Source: a virus. From it: 27,246 bases of DNA. Each line of letters begins with the position of its first letter. Position 1 is the stretch's first letter. A program made the position numbers and the translations under genes. The stretch spans positions 1 through 27,246 of IMG/VR virus record IMGVR_UViG_3300037961_005784. One strand, written 5' to 3'. Shown piece after piece: positions 1-27,246 of the stretch. The notes beneath the pieces were generated by a model. The model was not told the origin of the DNA, searched no databases, and worked only from the letters and a program-made list of their open reading frames with translations.

Positions 1-208
1 TACTAAAAATACCTCCTAGTATACCTGCCCCAGCGGCGGCTATTGCGAATGGATTTGCCATATTTTTTGTTGTATTTGTTATTGTTGTTGTTGGTCTATT
101 ATAATAAGTTAACGTAGTGCCTTTTATAGGTGGAAGAGGTGAATAAGCTAAACCCGCCATCCTACCTGTACCAACTCTTTTTTGTGGTGTTCTTGATTTA
201 GGATTCAC
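1..208 (-). CDS. Partial virion-type protein, possible ejection/internal protein (3' end outside window)
   Basis: An open frame runs from a GTG at 206-208 to the left edge of the window, so only the N-terminal part is visible. The GTG overlaps the TAG of the preceding gene by one base (TAGTG), which matches the packing style of the region. Two in-frame ATG codons, at 158-160 and 59-61, are alternative starts. From the last ATG the protein would begin MANPFAIAAAGAG, an Ala/Gly-rich hydrophobic N-terminus of the kind I associate with phage internal virion or ejection proteins. From the GTG it would carry an extra 49-residue Pro/Thr-rich leader. Its place directly after the tail muzzle genes supports a virion role. 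The function is inferred from position and the N-terminal character only, and the true start is undecided. Confidence 0.55.
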   Translation of the reverse strand, partial: MNPKSRTPQKRVGTGRMAGLAYSPLPPIKGTTLTYYNRPTTTITNTTKNMANPFAIAAAGAGILGGIFS

Positions 209-1521
209 TATATTGTTATTTTATTAAAATTTGTTACAGTACCAAACAACTCTTCTTTTTTTGTTATTGTTTCATTTGTTGGCAAACAAAATGTTGCCTT
301 TAAAAAATTACCTTTTACTCCTGTTACACCTAAATTACTAGATATATCTGCATCATATACCTCTCCTTCTATACCAGGTGAGTTATTTTGAAAGTCTGCA
401 AAATATCTATTACCTCTTTTGTTAAATATAGATGCGTTTATATAAACGTTAGAAACTGTTGTTTCTGAGTTTGCTATATCTTCAGCTGAATCTAAATAAT
501 AATCATCTACTCCATTACTATCTCTATCATCAGTGTTTGTTTTTATATATTTTAATGCCCATTTTGGCGTTCCTTCATATGAAATATTATAAAATATATT
601 TTCTTCAACTGAGTTTTGATTTACAGAAAAAGTTACAGAACTTTCGTTTGTATTAGATCCGTAATATTGCCCATATGTTATACCACCCACTTTATCATAG
701 TGTTTCCATATGTTATTACCACTAAAAGTATAAAAATTATTAGTTAAACTAAAACCTTGATATGGTTTATAACTATGTCGACTAGTCCAACCATTTATGT
801 TATCACTAAAACTTACTGTTTCAAAAGAAGGTCCAGTTTGTACTGATATAATATAACTTTGGTGATGAGCATCAAAACTACCAACAATTCTTGTAGCTGT
901 TTTTAATTTATCTCTAAAAAAAGATCGCATACCATAATCTGATATAGGTGTTATTCCGTCTCCACCTCCAGCGCCACTTGATAATCTTAATACTACACCT
1001 CTGTTTTTATCAGAAAAATATTTTCTACTGCCATAGACAGCAAAACTTTCAGGATTTTTTGAAATACCATATCTACCTGTAAAAGGAACTATTTGACCGA
1101 TAACAACATTACTTGATGTTACAGCGCCACCACCTTCTGCATTAAATATAGCGTCTTTGTCTATTAATGCTTTACTAACTTTATCTTCTTGAAACACAAT
1201 TAAATTTGTTTCTTCTGCAAAAAGTTTTTGTATACTACCATTAGCTGAGTTAACAGATTTTGTTATTGGCTCTGCCATGGAAAATTGATTAGTGTTATTT
1301 ATAGCCGTTCTAGAATTAAAAACACCACTATATATCAAAGCATTTTTTCTTCTTTCTTCTTCAAATGATTCATCTATTATATATGCTTTTACACCAAGAT
1401 CTACAGAAACCTCATTAAAACCACCCTTTATTCTACTCTCCTCTATATGCCAAGTTTCAGATCCCTTACTACTCTTTATATAAAATGAATTAAAATAAGC
1501 TATGTCTATAGTTGTTGGCAT
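208..1521 (-). CDS. Muzzle-like tail protein, C-terminal part encoded as a separate gene
   Basis: A 437-residue protein. Residues about 23-50 (WHIEESRIKGGFN, then VDLGVKAYI) and the following stretch, with SGVFNSRTAINNTNQFS, AEPITKSVNSANGSIQKLF and LIDKDAIFNAEGGG, match my memory of the C-terminal half of the long tail muzzle/stabilisation protein in crAss-like and related marine phages. It is rich in Ser, Asn, Tyr and Gly, as expected for an all-beta virion protein, and has no signal peptide or membrane segment. It starts four bases after the stop of the 1229-residue muzzle-like gene, in a different frame, so the two probably assemble into one distal tail structure. A search against single-chain muzzle proteins would decide whether this is a split gene. 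Family assignment is from memory. Confidence 0.6.
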   Translation of the reverse strand: MPTTIDIAYFNSFYIKSSKGSETWHIEESRIKGGFNEVSVDLGVKAYIIDESFEEERRKNALIYSGVFNSRTAINNTNQFSMAEPITKSVNSANGSIQKLFAEETNLIVFQEDKVSKALIDKDAIFNAEGGGAVTSSNVVIGQIVPFTGRYGISKNPESFAVYGSRKYFSDKNRGVVLRLSSGAGGGDGITPISDYGMRSFFRDKLKTATRIVGSFDAHHQSYIISVQTGPSFETVSFSDNINGWTSRHSYKPYQGFSLTNNFYTFSGNNIWKHYDKVGGITYGQYYGSNTNESSVTFSVNQNSVEENIFYNISYEGTPKWALKYIKTNTDDRDSNGVDDYYLDSAEDIANSETTVSNVYINASIFNKRGNRYFADFQNNSPGIEGEVYDADISSNLGVTGVKGNFLKATFCLPTNETITKKEELFGTVTNFNKITI

Positions 1522-15268: not shown

Positions 15269-15562
15269 TTAATTGTATTTTTTGAGATCTATTTTATAAC
15301 TCTCATCTAATCCTTCAATATCTATTAATTCGTGGCAAATTTTGGTTACTTCTTTAAAATATTCTTTTTTTGTTTGAAGTATGCTTTTTCCATGCATTTT
15401 ACTTACCCTACATATATCAGGTCTATCATCATATATAGAACAAATATTACCTATTAAGTTTGCACAACTACCATCTTTCTTTGTAGGTAAACCATATTTT
15501 GCTCCATTAATTTTACCGATAAATCTACAACAAGCTCCGCAACTAGAACATAAAAACTCCAT
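15269..15562 (-). CDS. YkgJ-type zinc/iron-chelating cysteine-cluster protein
   Basis: A 97-residue protein with the CxxCGxCC start typical of the YkgJ family: C5, C8, C11 and C12, followed by C33 (SCANLIGN), C41 (NICSIYDDRP), C51 (ICR) and C76. The spacing and the IYDDRPDICR motif match the family well. YkgJ-type proteins are proposed to bind zinc or iron; their biochemical role is not settled. Here it sits between a putative small terminase (TAATG overlap) and the large terminase, so a role linked to packaging or to late control is possible, but this is only context. Confidence 0.8.
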   Translation of the reverse strand: MEFLCSSCGACCRFIGKINGAKYGLPTKKDGSCANLIGNICSIYDDRPDICRVSKMHGKSILQTKKEYFKEVTKICHELIDIEGLDESYKIDLKKYN

Positions 15563-17069: not shown

Positions 17070-17242
17070 TATTTTTTTAATTTAAATTGTTTATCGTATG
17101 GTACTAATCTATTTAAAGCTTCTCTTCTGGCTTGGCATCCACAAGGTACGTTTAAACCTTTTGAAACTTTATCTACAATGGTTTTAATACCTGTTGCTTT
17201 TGTTACTTTATGTATTGTATCTCCTAATCCTTTTGATTTCAT
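17069..17242 (-). CDS. 57-residue protein with CGC motif, function unknown
   Basis: A short gene I read directly from the sequence. The ATG at 17240-17242 overlaps the stop of the HEGGH gene (ATGA), and the TAA at 17069-17071 overlaps the holin ATG (TAATG), so both ends fit the tight operon. The product begins MKSKGLGDTIHKVTKATGIK and continues to a NVPCGCQARREALNRL segment (residues 31-46), ending in a basic KLKK. The GLGDTI..VTKATGIK and CGC..R pattern is one I recall from small proteins of several phage groups, of unknown role. The Cys pair could bind a metal, but two cysteines alone do not show that. Confidence 0.75.
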   Translation of the reverse strand: MKSKGLGDTIHKVTKATGIKTIVDKVSKGLNVPCGCQARREALNRLVPYDKQFKLKK

Positions 17243-18804
17243 TTTATAATTTTTTCTGGTTTAATGTTTTTAAATAAATTACTAAAAAATGTCCTTAATG
17301 GATCATTATTATCACCCCGGCTTGGATCAGTTTGCCTTGTAGTTGTTGGTATTTCACCTTTTTCATATTTATCTAAATTCTGATAAATATTTTGCATTGA
17401 CCAAGCACCATATTCCATGTCTATATCGTGATAATAATCATCTTTACCTGGTGTCTGAGTTTCTTTTTTAAATGTCATACCTAATATTGCATCTAATGAG
17501 GTTAAATAACTTGTATTAGCTCTAAACGCTGGGGCAAAAGGAGATCTATTAGGATTGTGTGGTGTACTTAAAAGACCTCTATAACCAGTGGCGTGGCCAC
17601 CTTCGTGAACTAGCAAACCCATAAGTGACGTATCGCTTTCATCCATTTGATGCGAATATTGACTAATAAAATTATCACCGGTATCAAGAAGCGGGTTTGT
17701 TTGATAATGTCCACCTCTACTTAAACTTGTGTAACCGTCATACTTATCTACAAAAATTCTATTGGTATTAGGATCATATTCAGCTTGAGTACCTCCAGAA
17801 CCATCTATTGTCCTTATACGAACGGGTGTTCTATAAGCATTATTAAGCATTTCTAGAACATTATAATTTTGAAAAGATCTTGGTTCATAATCATAATTTA
17901 AAGAGTCTGCATATATTGCGTCTTCATCACGCTCTCCACCTGTAACACTTGCCAAAACATCAGCCATTTGTCTTTTGCGATCTATAGGATAAAATCTACT
18001 ATAAACTTGTCTCATCTGTCCTAAATCACCTAATCTACCACTATAAATTGTTCTATATTTTTTTGGAGTATCTTCATCAGGTGTTCCTACATAAGGCGGT
18101 TGATCCATACCTATCATAGCTTCAGATTCTATATATCTAGTAGGATTATTATTTATTACTGTATCAAACTCTAAATTTTTATTTACTCTAGAAACTAAAG
18201 TGTCTATTCGTTCATCAGTAAAAACTTTATCTAAGCCGTATTGCATCATTCTACCTAAATTATAATCTACCTCATATCTATAAGGATATGTTGGGTCATT
18301 ATAAGAAACGTTTGGCTTTGGACCAGATGGATACTTACTTACTTCACCATATTGTTGTATAAATGGATTATTTTTCAAAAAACCTACCTTACCATTAAAT
18401 CTGTAATTTGACGGAACATACTGTCTTGTAAAAGTTTCACTTCTTTCAATACCTTCTTGTTTAAAAAAAGGAGCATATCTACGAGCAAGTTTAGCTCTAT
18501 TTTCTGGTTTTATTTTAAAATCAATATATTTATCACTAGAAGTAGTAAAAAACTCTTTATATTTTTCATATTCCTCTTTAGTAGGTTCTTTTGAAAAATC
18601 AATGTCATCAGAAAAATATACACTTTCACTTTCTTTTTGATTTATAAGTTCTTTAAGATTTGGTACTTTATCAAAGTTTGATGAATTAATGTTTGTTCTA
18701 TCTACATCAACATCTCTTGTTACAGGTTTATTTAAACTACTTCTAATTTTATTTAAAAGTGGATTAGAACTTTTATTTAAAAGTTTATTAATTGTAGGAT
18801 CCAT
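17239..18804 (-). CDS. HEGGH zinc-metallopeptidase-like protein
   Basis: A 521-residue protein with a zinc-peptidase motif H400-E401-G402-G403-H404 in LLVHEGGHATGYRG. H400 and H404 would be metal ligands and E401 the general base. A plausible third ligand is E464 in DIDMEYGAWSM, 60 residues downstream, in the E..AW arrangement typical of gluzincin-type enzymes. The region just before the motif (RIFVDKYDGYTSLSRGG) looks like the edge strand of that fold. The N-terminal 340 residues are Asn/Tyr/Pro-rich and not recognised. There is no signal peptide or membrane segment. It could cleave a virion or host protein, or serve in lysis or entry. It starts with TAATG overlap after a basic small protein. 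Confidence 0.65.
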   Translation of the reverse strand: MDPTINKLLNKSSNPLLNKIRSSLNKPVTRDVDVDRTNINSSNFDKVPNLKELINQKESESVYFSDDIDFSKEPTKEEYEKYKEFFTTSSDKYIDFKIKPENRAKLARRYAPFFKQEGIERSETFTRQYVPSNYRFNGKVGFLKNNPFIQQYGEVSKYPSGPKPNVSYNDPTYPYRYEVDYNLGRMMQYGLDKVFTDERIDTLVSRVNKNLEFDTVINNNPTRYIESEAMIGMDQPPYVGTPDEDTPKKYRTIYSGRLGDLGQMRQVYSRFYPIDRKRQMADVLASVTGGERDEDAIYADSLNYDYEPRSFQNYNVLEMLNNAYRTPVRIRTIDGSGGTQAEYDPNTNRIFVDKYDGYTSLSRGGHYQTNPLLDTGDNFISQYSHQMDESDTSLMGLLVHEGGHATGYRGLLSTPHNPNRSPFAPAFRANTSYLTSLDAILGMTFKKETQTPGKDDYYHDIDMEYGAWSMQNIYQNLDKYEKGEIPTTTRQTDPSRGDNNDPLRTFFSNLFKNIKPEKIIK

Positions 18805-19061
18805 TATTTTTCACCACATTTTTTACTTGGATTACTTACTTGAACCCAATTTTCTTTATTAAACCAATCACGTAATGTAGCACCTTTTTTTCTAGCTCCT
18901 TTTACATTTGACTTACTAGATCTTTTATACTTACCACCTTTAGCAGCTTTACGCTTAGCTCTAACTACTTTAGCTCTTTCAGCTTTACTCATAGATCTAA
19001 CTTTAGCAGCTGGTAAACATACTTTTTTAGTGCCACCACCTTTTATTTTTTTCTTAGGCAT
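18804..19061 (-). CDS. Basic small phage protein with LRDWF motif
   Basis: An 85-residue, Lys/Arg-rich protein with motifs VCLPAAKVRSMSKAERAKVV (residues 14-33), GKYKRSSKSNVKG (42-54), TLRDWFNKENWVQVSNP (62-78) and a final KKCG. These are recurrent in small basic proteins of marine phages and algal viruses in my memory, where the LRDWF block usually precedes the C.PA.K..SMS block; here the order is reversed. A DNA- or RNA-binding role is a guess from charge (about a third of residues are Lys or Arg). It overlaps both neighbours by TAATG. Confidence 0.65.
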   Translation of the reverse strand: MPKKKIKGGGTKKVCLPAAKVRSMSKAERAKVVRAKRKAAKGGKYKRSSKSNVKGARKKGATLRDWFNKENWVQVSNPSKKCGEK

Positions 19062-19231: not shown

Positions 19232-19495
19232 TTAACATCTCCAACGTCTTCTAGCGGCTCTACCTCTTTCGCCTTTCCAACCTCTGGATCTAGCACAAAA
19301 AGATCGCCTTCTAGCAGCTCGTTTTTTTGATGGATTTTTTTCTGTTACAGCAGTTTTTAATTTACTACCAGGATTTTTCCTTCTATACTCTCTAACCCCT
19401 TTTTTAGTCATACCTGCACCTTCTTTTACAGTGCGAAAGTTTCTACCTTTACCTTTTGTAGTTTTTCTAGGTTCTTTTGACTTTTTTCTAGGCAT
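19232..19495 (-). CDS. Basic small phage protein, DUF6321-like
   Basis: An 87-residue, extremely basic protein: PRKKSKEPRKTTKGKGRNF, then GAGMTKKGVREYRRKNPGSK, LKTAVTEKNPSKKRAARRRS and FCARSRGWKGE. The G.TKKG...YR..NPGS.LKTAVT...P.....RRRSFCARS pattern is one I recall across marine phages and large algal viruses, catalogued I believe as DUF6321 (unverified). The function is unknown; the charge suggests nucleic acid binding or DNA condensation in the virion. It joins the preceding 35-residue gene by TAATG and ends 21 bases before the next start. The usual SFCARS core is intact. Confidence 0.7.
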   Translation of the reverse strand: MPRKKSKEPRKTTKGKGRNFRTVKEGAGMTKKGVREYRRKNPGSKLKTAVTEKNPSKKRAARRRSFCARSRGWKGERGRAARRRWRC

Positions 19496-19780: not shown

Positions 19781-20221
19781 TTAACGATTTTTATCTTTAA
19801 TCATATCATCTAAAGCTTTATTGAACACTTTATCAGTATATGATTTGTTTTTGTAGAAAACGTTTTTGTTTGATATGGGTACGTCTTCTTGACCCAATAA
19901 TATTCTGTACACTCTATTAATGAGTTGTTTTGTTTTAAATGAAACGCAATATATACTGTATTTTATAGTAGTCCTATTTCTATTACGCCAAACATCGATC
20001 CAACCATTTTTTCTTAATCTTTCCCAACGATGCTTATCCCAACTATAAGTATATGTTCCGTCTTTAAAATCTTTTATTGTAAATCTATTTTTACAGTCTA
20101 AATATATAAGAAGTTCAAGATCTGCTTCTTTTAAATCATAAGTTTTACAAGCCCATTTTCTAATAATTCTGTAGTACTTAAATACTTGTAAATCTCTTAA
20201 ATCAGATGCAGAATTTATCAT
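19781..20221 (-). CDS. Probable winged-helix (MarR-like) DNA-binding protein
   Basis: A 146-residue basic protein. Residues about 29-110 fit a winged-helix layout: a helix DLKEADLELLIYLD (29-42), helices through WDKHRWERLRKNGWID (61-76) as the recognition-helix region, a wing RNRNRTTIKYSIYCV (79-93) and a closing helix TKQLINRVYRILLGQEDVP (97-115). The LRKNGWI..W.NR...IKY signature is MarR-like. I recall such proteins in marine phages. It could regulate late transcription. It overlaps groES by ATGA and is therefore probably cotranscribed and translationally coupled with the chaperonin genes. The target is unknown. Confidence 0.55.
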   Translation of the reverse strand: MINSASDLRDLQVFKYYRIIRKWACKTYDLKEADLELLIYLDCKNRFTIKDFKDGTYTYSWDKHRWERLRKNGWIDVWRNRNRTTIKYSIYCVSFKTKQLINRVYRILLGQEDVPISNKNVFYKNKSYTDKVFNKALDDMIKDKNR

Positions 20222-20475
20222 AACACCACAACAACATCTTGTTGTTTTATAACATGGAAAAGTTTATTATCAAACTCTATACCATGACCAGCGTGTTTGT
20301 TGTAATATATAATATCGTCTTTTTTTAATCCTTTAGTTTCCTCGCCAAAACTAATTACTTTACCTTTTGAATATCTAACGTCTTTTTTAATATCATCTGT
20401 AATTAAAAGTCCGTTAACTGTCTTAGGTTCTTCTTTTATTTTCTTTATGATTATATAATAATTAATTGCTTTCAT
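20218..20475 (-). CDS. groES: Phage co-chaperonin GroES (Cpn10)
   Basis: An 85-residue chaperonin-10; cellular GroES has about 97. The N-terminal strand YYIIIKKIKEEPKT is followed by a mobile loop with NGLLITDD (21-28), equivalent to GGIVLTG in E. coli, whose three hydrophobic residues dock on GroEL apical domains; here they are L-L-I. Then come GKVISFGEE (38-46), LKKDDIIYYNKHAG (50-63), GIEFDNKLFHVI (65-76) and the terminal strand DVVVVL. The roof-loop region is shorter than in E. coli. It starts inside the end of groEL (14-base overlap), the reverse of the usual bacterial groES-groEL order. The pairing with an adjacent groEL supports a working chaperonin set. Confidence 0.85.
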   Translation of the reverse strand: MKAINYYIIIKKIKEEPKTVNGLLITDDIKKDVRYSKGKVISFGEETKGLKKDDIIYYNKHAGHGIEFDNKLFHVIKQQDVVVVL

Positions 20476-22030
20476 TTACTCTTATATTACTTATCACACA
20501 ATCTGCAGATATTATAGTGTTAACAACACTTATTGCATTTTTTAAAGCAGTTTTTGTTACTAAAACAGGATCAATTATACCTGTTTTTATCATATCAACT
20601 ACTTCACCACTAACTACGTTAATTCCTTCACCAGATAATAATCCTTCATCATAATCATGATGTATACCTGCATTATCTAGTATTGTATAAAAAGGTGCTT
20701 GTATTGCTTTAAACAATATTTCTTCACCTATGTTTTTAGCTTTTAATGATTTCGAAGCATTAAATAAAGCAACACCGCCACCTGCTACAATACCTTCTTG
20801 TAAAGCAGCTTTTGTAGCATATATAGCGTCTTCAACTCTATCTTTTTTTTCTTTTAATTCAACTTTGCTATTTGCTCCTACTTTTATTATAGCTACAGAT
20901 CCAGTTAACATAGCTATCCTTTGTTCTAACTTTGTTTTTATAAACTGATTTTTTTCTTTGCTAATTTTGCTATACACACTTTTTATACGCTCGTCAACCT
21001 TTTCTTTTACGTTATCAACCGTTATAACAGTGTTTTTATTGTCCGTAACGGACTTTTTTGCTTCACCTAATACATCTGGTGATATTAAATCTAAATCATC
21101 ACCTAACTCTTCATTTATAACTTGCGCTCCGGTAAGTATCGCAAGATCTTCAATTGTATCTTGTTTTGTTGGACCGAAACCTGGTAAATCTACAACATTT
21201 ATTTTTATGTTACCTTTGACTTTATTCGTCAATAAAGCAGCCATTGGTTGTTGTTCTACACCAGCTACTATCAACAAACTCCTTTTTTGTTTTATAACAA
21301 ACTCACAAACACTTTGTATTTTACGGATACTAGGTATAGAAGAAGAAACTATCAGTACGTACGGATTATCTAGTTCTGCTCTACCTTTATCCTTGTCAGT
21401 TATAAAATGTGGCGATTTGAGTCCGCAATCTATTTGTGTGCCTTCGACAAACTCTAAATGAGTGTCAGCGGTCTCAGACTCTTCCATTAAGACTATACCG
21501 TCTTTTCCTACTTTTGAATAAGCTTGCGATATAACTTCCCCGAGAGCTTTGTCGTTATTGCAACTAATTTCTGCCACGTTTTGTAGCATAGTTCCTTTAA
21601 CTTCAATAGCTTTTTTGTCAAGATATCTTTTAATTTTTTCAAATCCATTTAAAATTCCTTGTTTTATTTCTCTTGTGTTATTATCTGTTTTCTCTTTATT
21701 TGCTAAATGCAAAAGAGAATCAGCAAGAACAGTAGCTGTAGTAGTACCGTCTCCTGCTTCTTTTACTGTATTTTTTGCAGCTTCTTTTATTAATGTTGCT
21801 CCAATGTTTTCAACTGGATCTATTAAAATTACAGACTCTGCTACAGTTACACCGTCTTTTGTTATGACTGGTTTACCTAATGCGTCTTCATATATTACGC
21901 ATTTTCCTGAAGCACCAAGGGTAGATTTAACTGCTTTTACTAGTTTATCTACCCCGTGCATTATCTTTTTGTTTGCATCTTTCCCGAAAGAAAGATTTTT
22001 TACTATCTCACTTGGGTTATTATATTCCAT
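20462..22030 (-). CDS. groEL: Phage chaperonin GroEL (Cpn60), possibly single-ring
   Basis: A 522-residue ATP-dependent folding chamber. ATPase residues are intact: TKDG with D59 (E. coli D52), GDGTTTAT with D94 (D87), VEDA with D401 (D398), GIVAGGG (413-419) and IIDP with D487 (D495). The apical groove is altered: L204, H208, Q239, C242, M263, L267 and T268 stand where E. coli has Y199, Y203, L234, L237, L259, V263 and V264; F209 is kept. The ring-ring contacts R452, E461, S463 and V464 are replaced by Y448, H457, D459 and Y460. The C-terminus stops at ISNIRVNESN, without the GGM tail. Correspondences come from alignment by eye. It is upstream of groES and likely folds phage virion proteins. 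The leader has no Shine-Dalgarno. Confidence 0.95.
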   Translation of the reverse strand: MEYNNPSEIVKNLSFGKDANKKIMHGVDKLVKAVKSTLGASGKCVIYEDALGKPVITKDGVTVAESVILIDPVENIGATLIKEAAKNTVKEAGDGTTTATVLADSLLHLANKEKTDNNTREIKQGILNGFEKIKRYLDKKAIEVKGTMLQNVAEISCNNDKALGEVISQAYSKVGKDGIVLMEESETADTHLEFVEGTQIDCGLKSPHFITDKDKGRAELDNPYVLIVSSSIPSIRKIQSVCEFVIKQKRSLLIVAGVEQQPMAALLTNKVKGNIKINVVDLPGFGPTKQDTIEDLAILTGAQVINEELGDDLDLISPDVLGEAKKSVTDNKNTVITVDNVKEKVDERIKSVYSKISKEKNQFIKTKLEQRIAMLTGSVAIIKVGANSKVELKEKKDRVEDAIYATKAALQEGIVAGGGVALFNASKSLKAKNIGEEILFKAIQAPFYTILDNAGIHHDYDEGLLSGEGINVVSGEVVDMIKTGIIDPVLVTKTALKNAISVVNTIISADCVISNIRVNESN

Positions 22031-23398: not shown

Positions 23399-23914
23399 TT
23401 AACAACCACTACAACCACAATATATATCTACTACTCCACTGGAGTTTAATCCAAAATCAACACCAAAAGAATTGTCATTATTGCAAGATCGGTCATCATT
23501 TGATAACCCAGTCTGTGTTTGCATATAATAGCTTCCAGATCCATCGCCATGGGCTGGAGCCGCGGTTGTTAGGTCTGCATCACTATATACGGTATCACCT
23601 TCAGCTAAATCCTGAACGGTAGCCGCTTGAGAAGGATTTAAATAAAAAGTGTGCGTTGAAACTAAAGAGTTATTTACATATTTACCAACTTGTAAAAATG
23701 TTACATAAGAACTTCTACTTGCTGGGTTTGGATCACAACCAGTGTTAACAGCTGGATATGTATTACCAGAGGTTACTGCACCACCTGTATTGCCGCCGTT
23801 TACCAAGTTATACATGGATATAGGCCCAGTCACATTTCCGCTTCCATAGGTGCTATTTAGTCTTTCTTGCGCTATGTCCTGCATAGACAATGTTCCTGTT
23901 GCCGGTACTGCCAT
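23399..23914 (-). CDS. Virion appendage-type protein with Cys-rich C-terminus
   Basis: A 171-residue protein. The N-terminus (MAVPATGTLSMQDIAQERLN, then GPISMYNLVNGGNTGG, residues 1-45) is of a kind I recall at the start of marine phage tail or collar proteins (P.SG.LSM.DI). Residues 90-164 share a beta module with the 99-residue neighbour (GDTVYSD, then SGVVDIYCG). Cysteines are at 60, 144, 166, 168 and 171, the last three packed into YCGCSGC, a likely disulfide or metal site. It overlaps the stop of the S74 appendage gene as TAATG and so is probably translated with it. It may cap or attach the appendage; this is inference. Confidence 0.62.
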   Translation of the reverse strand: MAVPATGTLSMQDIAQERLNSTYGSGNVTGPISMYNLVNGGNTGGAVTSGNTYPAVNTGCDPNPASRSSYVTFLQVGKYVNNSLVSTHTFYLNPSQAATVQDLAEGDTVYSDADLTTAAPAHGDGSGSYYMQTQTGLSNDDRSCNNDNSFGVDFGLNSSGVVDIYCGCSGC

Positions 23915-26900
23915 TATTTAATTTGTTTTTTAAGTTCTTCTATTTCGGCTTTTAATTCTTTTATTGCTTCAAGTAATATTGGTGCTATACCTTGATGTCT
24001 CATTGAAAGCATACCATCTTTATTTTCTCTTACAAGTTCTGGCATTACTTTTTGTACATCTTGAGCAATAAACCCTACATCTTCTTTTATTTCTAATATA
24101 CTATCTGATGGTTTCCAATCAAATGTTACACCTTGTAATTTACTTACTTTATCTAAAGCTGACTCAATAGGTTTAATATTTTCTTTTAATCTTTTGTCAG
24201 ATGGAGATCCAAAAGCCACAACATCACCGAGCATAGTTAAAGCTCCAGAGCTATTAATAAGTGCGTGAGTAGTTGCAGCAGTTCTAATTTCCATTACATC
24301 ATTACTATGATCATATTCTATTTTTCCTCTATAAGCTGCTGTACCACCCGTACCATCACCAAATAATAAACTACCACTTGAACTTTGACCACTAATTATA
24401 GATATTCCAGTATTACCAGTGCTCTCAACAACTAAATTTCTACCATGGGAATTATATGACCCCGGATTTGTTACCCCAATACCTACATATCCATCATCTC
24501 CAATAAACATTAAACTTGAACCATCTCCATCTTTAAATTGAAAATTCCTGCTTGATTGGTCATTGTCTGAATCTATTGTGATGGCACCTGATTCTTTAAA
24601 TTTAATTTGTGCAAAATCTGCTACATTAAAATCTAAAGATGTTGCAGTAGCTAAAGATAAATTACCTGAACTGTCAATACGCATTCTTTCTGCACCATTA
24701 ACTCTAAAATTCATATAGTTGCTGGTATGATTATAAGTAATCCCACCTACATTATCATCGTCAGGGTCAGCAAAATAAATATTTGAACCTTGGTCGTTGT
24801 CAGCGGCTAAAGTCATTCCTGAAAAATCATTGCCTTCGTAAATAATTAAATCGTCAGCATTTGAATTATAACTAGTTGGATCAGTTGCTCCAATTAGCAC
24901 ATCTCCTGTACTATGAATTCTCATTTTTTCATTGCCATTCACACCAAACGTTAAACTTGTACTAGCTGTGGTTGTTTGTATAACTCCATTACCAGATGAA
25001 AAATTAAGTTCACCATTTGTTTCACTAATAGTTAAATCAGCATCAATTGTAGTTGCACCATTTAAATAAGTTGTGCCGTTATTATAAAAATCAAAACTTG
25101 CATTAAAAGCACCAACACCTAATTTTGAAATAAGTGCATTACCATTACAATGAAAAAGTTGGGATGGACTTGTAGTAGCTAAACCTAAATAACCATTTTT
25201 TGTAAGACGCATTCTTTCAGTTGCTGTAGTATTATTAGCTGCAGCTGTTGCCCATATTATTCTTGAACCAGCGCCACCATCCTCAGCTCTCATTGCCATT
25301 CTCGCACACCCTTTAGCACTATCTGATATAGCACCTGTCATGGGGTTTCTATTTATATCAAACTCATAGTTTGTTCCATCTGTGTTTATAAAACCATGTG
25401 CTCCCGATGCTTCATCTAATTCAATTACACCATCAACCGTTAATTTAGACCCCGGGCTTGCTACTCCAATTCCTACATTACCGTTAGTGTGGACTCGCAT
25501 ACGCTCTGTATATGAACCACCACCCATAAATTTTACAGCACCATTACCTGACCAACCATATTCTAAATCATTACTGTCGTTAACTCTCATCAAAGTTCTA
25601 ACGCTACCACCTGTATCTTTTGAACGATATTCAACACCTCTTTCAACTAAAATGTGTCCAGTGCCTATATGCAATGTATCACCTGGCGAAGTTGTTCCCA
25701 TTCCTACATTGCCAGCATTACTCATATAGATTACATTACTATTAAGACCACCTGCATTATTACCTGTATCAAACTGTAATCCACCATTGTCTAATCCTTG
25801 TATTCTACCTAAAGTACCACCAGGATTTGTAAAAGATATTAATGAATCTAACCCATCTGTTGTATTATGTAATTTTAAAATATCTTCATTATCGTCATGT
25901 ACCTCTAGTCTATAAGAAGGAGAAGTCGTTCCGACTCCAACATTTCCATCGTTTGTAACTGTAAATTTAGCATTGGCTTGTTCAGCTGTTGAATCAGTAT
26001 GGCTAGCTGTACTTTTAAATGCAACCATCCATTTATCAAAACTAGCAGCATAAGGTGTTCCTGTATACCACTCTCTATCTTCAGTTGTATTGTGCATAAA
26101 TACACCCGCTCCTCTTGCGCCACTTTGAGTTGAATTTAAAATTATTCTAGAGTTTGTATGGCTAGTGCTTCCATCTGAAGTTACATTTATTGTTGCCATT
26201 ACATCTAATGTTTGTGTAGGGCTTGTAACGCCAATTCCTACATTACCGGAGCTATCAATACGCATTCTTTCTGTACCACCATTATTAGCAAACCTAATAG
26301 TATCAGCAGCGCCTGCTTCGTTACCATGATTTGTGCTTATAAGTAAGTCTCCATCTGTATAAGAATATATAGCGTAATTACTATCATCACTATCGTTTAA
26401 TTTTAATTCAGGATGTGCCCCTGATATTTGTAATAAATCGCCATTAGTAGTAAGTTCTCCTGCAAAAGTTCCATTACCTGAACCATCTACAGTAAACTTT
26501 TCTGTGCCGTTATTTCTAAATTTATAACTTAAACCATCTGGGCTATTAAAATTAACAGCGCCGCCATCCATACCTATATGAACTTTTTGAGTATTAGCAC
26601 TTCTTTCAATAGTTAAACCACCATCAAAACCGCTATCATCTCCCTGTTTTATATGTAATTCAGAGCTCGGCGAATCTGTTCCAATTCCTATATTACCACT
26701 ATCCCTTATTACAAGCTTTTTATTAACACCTGAATCAGCAACTGCAAATAAAATATTAGCATCAGAATCATGCCCTAATAAAGCACCATATGAACCACTC
26801 CCATCATCATGTAAATCAATCCATACTTGATTATCACCTGATTCAAACCTAGCAACAACATTTGTTGTTGCATGATAACTATGTAATCTAAAAGCTGGTG

Positions 26901-27246
26901 AAGTTGTCCCAATTCCTACATTACCACCAGATGTTATACGCATTCTTTCAGTTAAACTATTCCCCCCAGTTGCTATTGCAAATGCCCCTAGTCCACTTGA
27001 ATTATCTTCATTTATAAATCTTATTTCAGATGAACAGAATAAATTACTTTCTCCTCTTTGCGCTCCAATACCTGCAAAATTTCCATTTGTGCCTCCTAAA
27101 TATAAAGATATTTTTCTACCGCTTGAATTTCCTTCTGTACCAACACTTAATAAATGGCTAGGAGCAGTAGTTCCAATTCCTACGTTTCCATCACCTAAAA
27201 TAGTCATGTGACTATCTGTTAAGTCTGCAGAATCATTATTATTAGA
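23914..27246 (-). CDS. Tail appendage protein with S74 intramolecular chaperone (5' end outside window)
   Basis: The visible frame is open to the right edge: upstream of the ATG at 27205-27207 it continues with thirteen sense codons (SNNNDSADLTDSH), so the true start is outside. Counted from that ATG there are 1097 residues. The body holds about ten degenerate repeats of GNVGIGTTSP...LH preceded by ERMRI, typical of trimeric beta-rich fibres. The C-terminal about 95 residues are a peptidase S74 chaperone: SDKRLKENI with S1003 and K1008 as the likely self-cleavage dyad, then GVTFDWK, DVGFIAQDVQKVMPELV, and a coiled coil. The chaperone trimerises the fibre and is then released by autocleavage. 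It probably carries host recognition. Confidence 0.85.
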   Translation of the reverse strand, partial: SNNNDSADLTDSHMTILGDGNVGIGTTAPSHLLSVGTEGNSSGRKISLYLGGTNGNFAGIGAQRGESNLFCSSEIRFINEDNSSGLGAFAIATGGNSLTERMRITSGGNVGIGTTSPAFRLHSYHATTNVVARFESGDNQVWIDLHDDGSGSYGALLGHDSDANILFAVADSGVNKKLVIRDSGNIGIGTDSPSSELHIKQGDDSGFDGGLTIERSANTQKVHIGMDGGAVNFNSPDGLSYKFRNNGTEKFTVDGSGNGTFAGELTTNGDLLQISGAHPELKLNDSDDSNYAIYSYTDGDLLISTNHGNEAGAADTIRFANNGGTERMRIDSSGNVGIGVTSPTQTLDVMATINVTSDGSTSHTNSRIILNSTQSGARGAGVFMHNTTEDREWYTGTPYAASFDKWMVAFKSTASHTDSTAEQANAKFTVTNDGNVGVGTTSPSYRLEVHDDNEDILKLHNTTDGLDSLISFTNPGGTLGRIQGLDNGGLQFDTGNNAGGLNSNVIYMSNAGNVGMGTTSPGDTLHIGTGHILVERGVEYRSKDTGGSVRTLMRVNDSNDLEYGWSGNGAVKFMGGGSYTERMRVHTNGNVGIGVASPGSKLTVDGVIELDEASGAHGFINTDGTNYEFDINRNPMTGAISDSAKGCARMAMRAEDGGAGSRIIWATAAANNTTATERMRLTKNGYLGLATTSPSQLFHCNGNALISKLGVGAFNASFDFYNNGTTYLNGATTIDADLTISETNGELNFSSGNGVIQTTTASTSLTFGVNGNEKMRIHSTGDVLIGATDPTSYNSNADDLIIYEGNDFSGMTLAADNDQGSNIYFADPDDDNVGGITYNHTSNYMNFRVNGAERMRIDSSGNLSLATATSLDFNVADFAQIKFKESGAITIDSDNDQSSRNFQFKDGDGSSLMFIGDDGYVGIGVTNPGSYNSHGRNLVVESTGNTGISIISGQSSSGSLLFGDGTGGTAAYRGKIEYDHSNDVMEIRTAATTHALINSSGALTMLGDVVAFGSPSDKRLKENIKPIESALDKVSKLQGVTFDWKPSDSILEIKEDVGFIAQDVQKVMPELVRENKDGMLSMRHQGIAPILLEAIKELKAEIEELKKQIK
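25465..27190 (-). repeat. Degenerate ~20-base repeats inside the appendage gene
   Basis: On the plus strand a short motif close to GTTCCAATTCCTACATTACC recurs near 25465, 25692, 25928, 26228, 26680, 26907 and 27170, at irregular intervals of about 230-300 bases. It is the DNA counterpart of the GNVGIGTTSP protein repeat on the minus strand. Because the bases stay similar as well as the residues, the copies may serve for recombination that changes fibre length. Irregular spacing and coding context exclude a CRISPR array. Confidence 0.7.

Follow-up and report, generated by a model that had tools for sequence, protein, structure and literature searches.

It has long been asked if chaperonins that depend on GroES must have two rings, and the evidence so far comes from engineered SR1 mutants and disputed mitochondrial data. 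The question is raised again by a chaperonin pair encoded in a 27,246-base virus record (IMGVR_UViG_3300037961_005784), the whole of which is referred to here as the window. A first-pass annotation of the window had claimed that its GroEL has lost the residues through which the two rings of E. coli GroEL meet. If true, a natural GroEL/GroES pair without the interface would answer the two-ring question directly, and the same pair would show how evolution overcomes the failure of lid release that halts SR1.

The window GroEL is a clear member of the group I GroEL/Cpn60 family. The ORF matches PF00118 (E = 1.6e-52, 179 bits against a cut-off of 34.3), with the Cpn60 domain spanning the whole protein, and phrog_5725 (E = 2.7e-136); the identity to bacterial GroELs is approximately 38–40%. 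With VIA-align, the best structural match to the GroEL model was 4ki8 (Z 44.3, 509 residues aligned, RMSD 3.7), where many group I chains, single- and double-ring alike, rank within a few Z units and ring number is not separable. The accompanying GroES ORF matches PF00166 with 44.8 bits, and a GroES is present at 52 of the 54 loci of relatives. The gene order is groEL-groES, the opposite of the groES-groEL order in E. coli. The 146 aa ORF that follows is likely to share a transcription unit with the chaperonin pair. The features of the locus are collected in Table 1.

Table 1. Chaperonin genes of the window and the sites discussed in the text.
Feature	Position	Strand	Basis or remark
GroEL (group I Cpn60), 522 aa	20462..22030	-	ORF and profile matches
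GroEL KEKTD (residues 112-116) at the helix D end; left ring-ring contact K105/A109, 1-residue deletion	21683..21697	-	
GroEL site of 7-residue deletion, loop before E. coli E434 (partner of K105)	20741..20761	-	alignment
GroEL Y448 codon; aligned with E. coli R452 of the right ring-ring salt bridge	20687..20689	-	alignment
GroEL residues 457-467, HHDYDEGLLSG: right-contact remnant, lacking E. coli helix 462-471; 4 residues deleted after Y460	20630..20662	-	
GroES (Cpn10), 85 aa	20218..20475	-	downstream of GroEL, 14-base overlap
GroES mobile loop (NGLLI), aligned with E. coli GGIVL	20401..20415	-	alignment
GroES site without the E. coli roof hairpin (~9 residues)	20329..20343	-	alignment
146 aa ORF, phrog_17028, function not known	19781..20221	-	start overlaps GroES end by 4 bases

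The register of the right ring-ring contact was obtained from HHalign, run on a phage-family profile against a bacterial GroEL profile, each built separately. E. coli R452, E461, P462, S463 and V464 pair with Y448, H457, H458, D459 and Y460, respectively. The window segment G455-I-H-H-D-Y460 faces E. coli G459-E-E-P-S-V464 and is followed by a 4-residue deletion. These are the pairs that had been claimed from an alignment by eye, with residue numbers that prove to be the real ones of the protein. The profile-profile alignment shows no shift at 448–460, which rules out an artefact of the by-eye register. R452 and E461 can be placed with confidence, with P446 and N453-A454-G455 serving as anchors. 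The pairing of S463/V464 with D459/Y460 is the least secure because the helix bearing S463 and V464 is missing, and MAFFT and HMMER put the gap 1–2 residues earlier than HHalign at this point.

The shortening extends beyond the window. The 457–482 segment has 20–22 residues in 33 of the 34 non-redundant family members versus 26–28 in 95 bacterial GroELs, a length change of 4–6 residues short as compared to 0 to +2. An AlphaFold2 model of the window GroEL (mean pLDDT = 86.8) contains a helix at 445–453 and no helix of at least 4 residues between 453 and 489, where the pLDDT is approximately 80. A bacterial GroEL that is 98% identical to E. coli was modelled alike as a control and presents helices at both 449–457 and 462–471; the window model has thus lost the ring-contact helix (E. 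coli 462–471). The site is altered beyond point changes; the first-pass annotation had overlooked the 4-residue deletion and the accompanying helix loss.

The left contact, composed of K105/A109 and the E434 loop, is likewise eroded in the alignment. E. coli K105 corresponds to K112, while A109 lands on T115/D116 with a 1-residue deletion, in agreement with the polar replacement of A109 that had been proposed. The end of helix D is shorter and polar, the loop preceding E434 is shorter by 7 residues in the HHalign alignment, and the C-terminal tail is also shorter. The staggered ring-ring contacts canonical for E. coli (R452-E461, S463/V464, K105/A109) are therefore not found in the window GroEL; these contacts are not universal in group I, being absent from mHsp60 (PMC7174398) and PfCpn60 (PMC7960994). 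With the helix gone from the model and the left contact and E434 loop eroded in the alignment, there is good support for the loss of the GroEL-type ring-ring interface, a loss more thorough than four point changes would have made it. A stable double ring in which some other, unrecognised interface has taken the place of the canonical contacts is improbable. Plasmodium Cpn60 offers a precedent, as it has a larger interface from a 26–27 residue insertion in place of the canonical residues (PMC7960994); however, the window GroEL has no comparable insertion, its contact segment, E434 loop and C-terminal tail are all shorter, and no conserved replacement surface was seen. An alternative contact on the base of the ring may still exist.

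Conservation at the interface was compared between the 34 non-redundant phage family members and the 95 bacterial GroELs, the latter a set centred on Pseudomonadota in which the cellular GroELs of Bacteroidota are represented by the reconstructed AFCB protein alone. The mean identity is similar in both sets (phage family 70%, bacterial 74%). At seven contact sites, the mean conservation in bacteria is 0.95 versus an equatorial mean of 0.73, while in the phage family it is 0.16 versus 0.71. The value of 0.16 was matched by at most 1 of 20,000 random equatorial draws, whose sites were unmatched for surface exposure. At 25 of the 240 positions near-invariant in bacteria, the phage family has become variable or has a deletion, and all eight tested contact positions belong to this set (hypergeometric P ~4e-9, with the caveat that neighbouring sites are not independent). 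Position 452 is occupied by H, K, A, Y or D in the family and position 463 by K, I, V, T or D. Judged by these alignments, the contact changes are not due to chance, as positions near-invariant in bacteria rank among the most variable of the family, and selective constraint is relaxed at the ring-ring interface across the whole phage family. The earlier argument from the SR1 positions stands insofar as all four are changed; it is weaker insofar as the residues vary freely and show no trend towards SR1-like letters.

The main rival to the single-ring reading is transient pairing. The empty chaperonin would consist of single rings, and two capped rings would join base to base as a football in the presence of ATP and the phage GroES, either by minimal contacts like those of mHsp60 or in a 1:1 register like that of phage EL. 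Human mHsp60 is without the GroEL salt bridges and, with ATP, pairs via S464-S464 and K109-E105 into double-ring footballs (PMC7174398). Phage EL gp146 also pairs without these bridges: it is a double ring without nucleotide, joined in a 1:1 register via unrelated residues, its rings separate in ATP, and it does not interact with E. coli GroES (PMC7185714). The EL gp146 segment at the right-contact site is longer, that of the window GroEL shorter. New contacts by Y448, H457 and Y460 are possible in principle. However, the contact sites vary freely across the family with no shared replacement contact visible. Transient pairing is a rather unlikely reading. The human mitochondrial Hsp60/Hsp10 pair is co-chaperonin-dependent with functional single rings (PMC7174398, PMC5575113) and resembles the window pair in its missing salt bridges; in contrast, it is an organelle system that makes footballs in ATP and the window GroEL is viral.

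The main ATPase residues tested are kept (T30, L31, G32, K51, D52, G53, D87, G88, T89–91, D398, G415, I454 and D495), while four others are changed (P33 to A, Y478 to I, A480 to V, A481 to V), so that an earlier statement that all were kept was a slight overstatement. The catalytic residues (D52, D87, D398, GDGTTT, GGG) are invariant in 34 of 34 family members. The D83-K327 salt bridge is retained in 34 of 42 members, where the two charges are exchanged (K/R-D), and R197-E386, the inter-subunit bridge of the GroEL closed state, is lost in the phage family; the roles of these bridges are general GroEL knowledge. The invariant catalytic residues and the mirrored D83-K327 pair show that selection acts on the protein. 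A decaying gene, already discounted in the first reading of the sequence, is ruled out by these two observations and the intact ORF. The common group I fold and ATPase would allow phage subunits to be incorporated into the rings of host GroEL, or to poison the host's chaperonin, with no role as a homo-oligomer; however, this is very improbable given an identity to bacterial GroEL of only ~40%, a dedicated GroES at 52 of 54 loci and the invariant catalytic residues.

The partnership of the window GroEL with GroES appears to be conserved, as the GroES mobile loop is glycine-hydrophobic and conserved among relatives. Throughout the family, GroES is without the roof hairpin that E. coli GroES has, and the phage lid is probably open at the top. 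T4 gp31 is likewise without a roof. The apical groove of E. coli GroEL binds both GroES and substrate. In the phage family, this groove carries L234Q and Y203H in 42 of 42 members and L259 to K in 26 of 42, and these polar changes may be read as weaker lid binding. SR1 captures GroES without release and has its function restored by weaker GroES binding, which is a requirement of a functional single-ring system (PMC5575113). Because SR1 traps GroES, a natural single ring would need weaker lid binding.

The preferred explanation, considered probable, is that the window encodes a group I chaperonin that depends on GroES, no longer has the GroEL-type interface and acts most likely as a single heptamer, or at most as a weak or transient pair that assembles and parts with nucleotide. 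ATP would bind at the equatorial site, which is conserved; the apical domains would then open, and the phage GroES would cap the ring via its conserved mobile loop. Hydrolysis would free the lid and substrate with no signal from a second ring. Turnover would require lid binding less tight than that of E. coli GroES on SR1, and the several polar changes of the groove would fit such binding. A missing interface, a more polar groove and a retained lid are together consistent with a single ring that sheds its lid once ATP has been hydrolysed. The single-ring state, weaker binding of the lid and a function in the folding of phage proteins in infected cells can be inferred.

A single-ring phage chaperonin is not in itself unusual, contrary to what had been supposed. 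OBP gp246 and AR9 gp228, which like the window GroEL are phage GroEL homologues, are single heptameric rings in solution and functional without a co-chaperonin (PMC9598537). OBP gp246 shares the loss of the right-contact segment (−11 residues), while the AR9 segment is of normal length. Segment length alone is therefore an unreliable predictor, and helix loss is ruled out as a sure single-ring sign. Both proteins are far more diverged than the window GroEL (Pfam Cpn60 scores of 49 and 71 bits, respectively, versus 179), which has an adjacent GroES gene and does not share their independence of a co-chaperonin gene partner. What would be new is a single-ring phage chaperonin that is coupled to its own GroES and near an ordinary group I GroEL in sequence. 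SR1, a laboratory construct of E. coli GroEL that traps GroES (PMC5575113), is altered at the same four positions R452, E461, S463 and V464; in the window GroEL, the contact helix itself appears to be gone, and the GroES and apical groove are changed as well. The single ring of the resurrected ancestral chaperonin ACI has been explained by changes at the same contact positions (PMC12696368).

Interface loss appears from sequence comparisons to recur in related marine viruses. The GroEL of Cellulophaga phage phi38:1/Callevirus, from similar viruses and ~39% identical to the window GroEL, also has a shortened right-contact segment. The lengths recorded were −10 in Cellulophaga phage phi14:2, −4 in Panino and −6 in Calle, possibly as independent losses. 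In a GroEL tree built with the contact columns removed, the window family forms one clade (support 99) and deletions of at least 4 residues need up to four changes; the number of independent losses is unsure because the Calle, Panino and phi14:2 branches are long. The GroELs of Flavobacterium immuto-type phages have a contact segment of full length and have lost R452, S463, V464 and K105. With six of eight contact positions relaxed (P ~2e-7) and no deletion, they form another family in which ring pairing may be weakened. The loss is not simply a viral property because R-E/D-S/A-V is kept in many GroELs from a Bacteroides phage DAC19 search and in that of a 735 kb phage. In marine Bacteroidetes virus group 2, GroEL is carried by 36 genomes (PMC5332604). 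In the literature searched, no statement was found on the ring number of the phi38:1/Callevirus or group 2 GroELs, nor was a report on the ring contacts of Bacteroidota phage GroELs found in its open-licence part. These patterns suggest that phages relaxed the ring interface more than once and that short-lived viral folding work may do without paired rings. A bolder form of the preferred explanation, in which an obligate single-ring GroEL with its own roofless GroES, a deleted pairing helix and a lid groove retuned for release is widespread in marine Bacteroidota podophage-type viruses, can be put forward only tentatively.

The large terminase of the window matches those of Manatee Spring phage ctfjg026 (62%) and Flavobacterium Elemovirus (46%), and also those of Cellulophaga phages; because of these matches, the host, a marine bacterium, probably belongs to Bacteroidota. 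A match to the crAssphage muzzle C-terminal domain at 208–1521 (-) is weak and below the cut-off (E = 7e-5), hinting at a kinship with Crassvirales-like podoviruses. The 1097 aa repetitive protein at 23914–27207 (-) ends in an endosialidase-type chaperone (Peptidase_S74) and is likely a tail fibre or spike. Two small proteins at 18804–19061 and 19232–19495 (-) are very Lys/Arg-rich, the second matching DUF6321. A 521 aa protein at 17239–18804 (-), adjoining a holin-like gene, has no family match and contains HEGGHATGYRG, which resembles a metallopeptidase motif. Adjoining the large terminase gene at 15269–15562 (-) is a small protein with a CxxCxxCC metal-chelating domain (PF03692).
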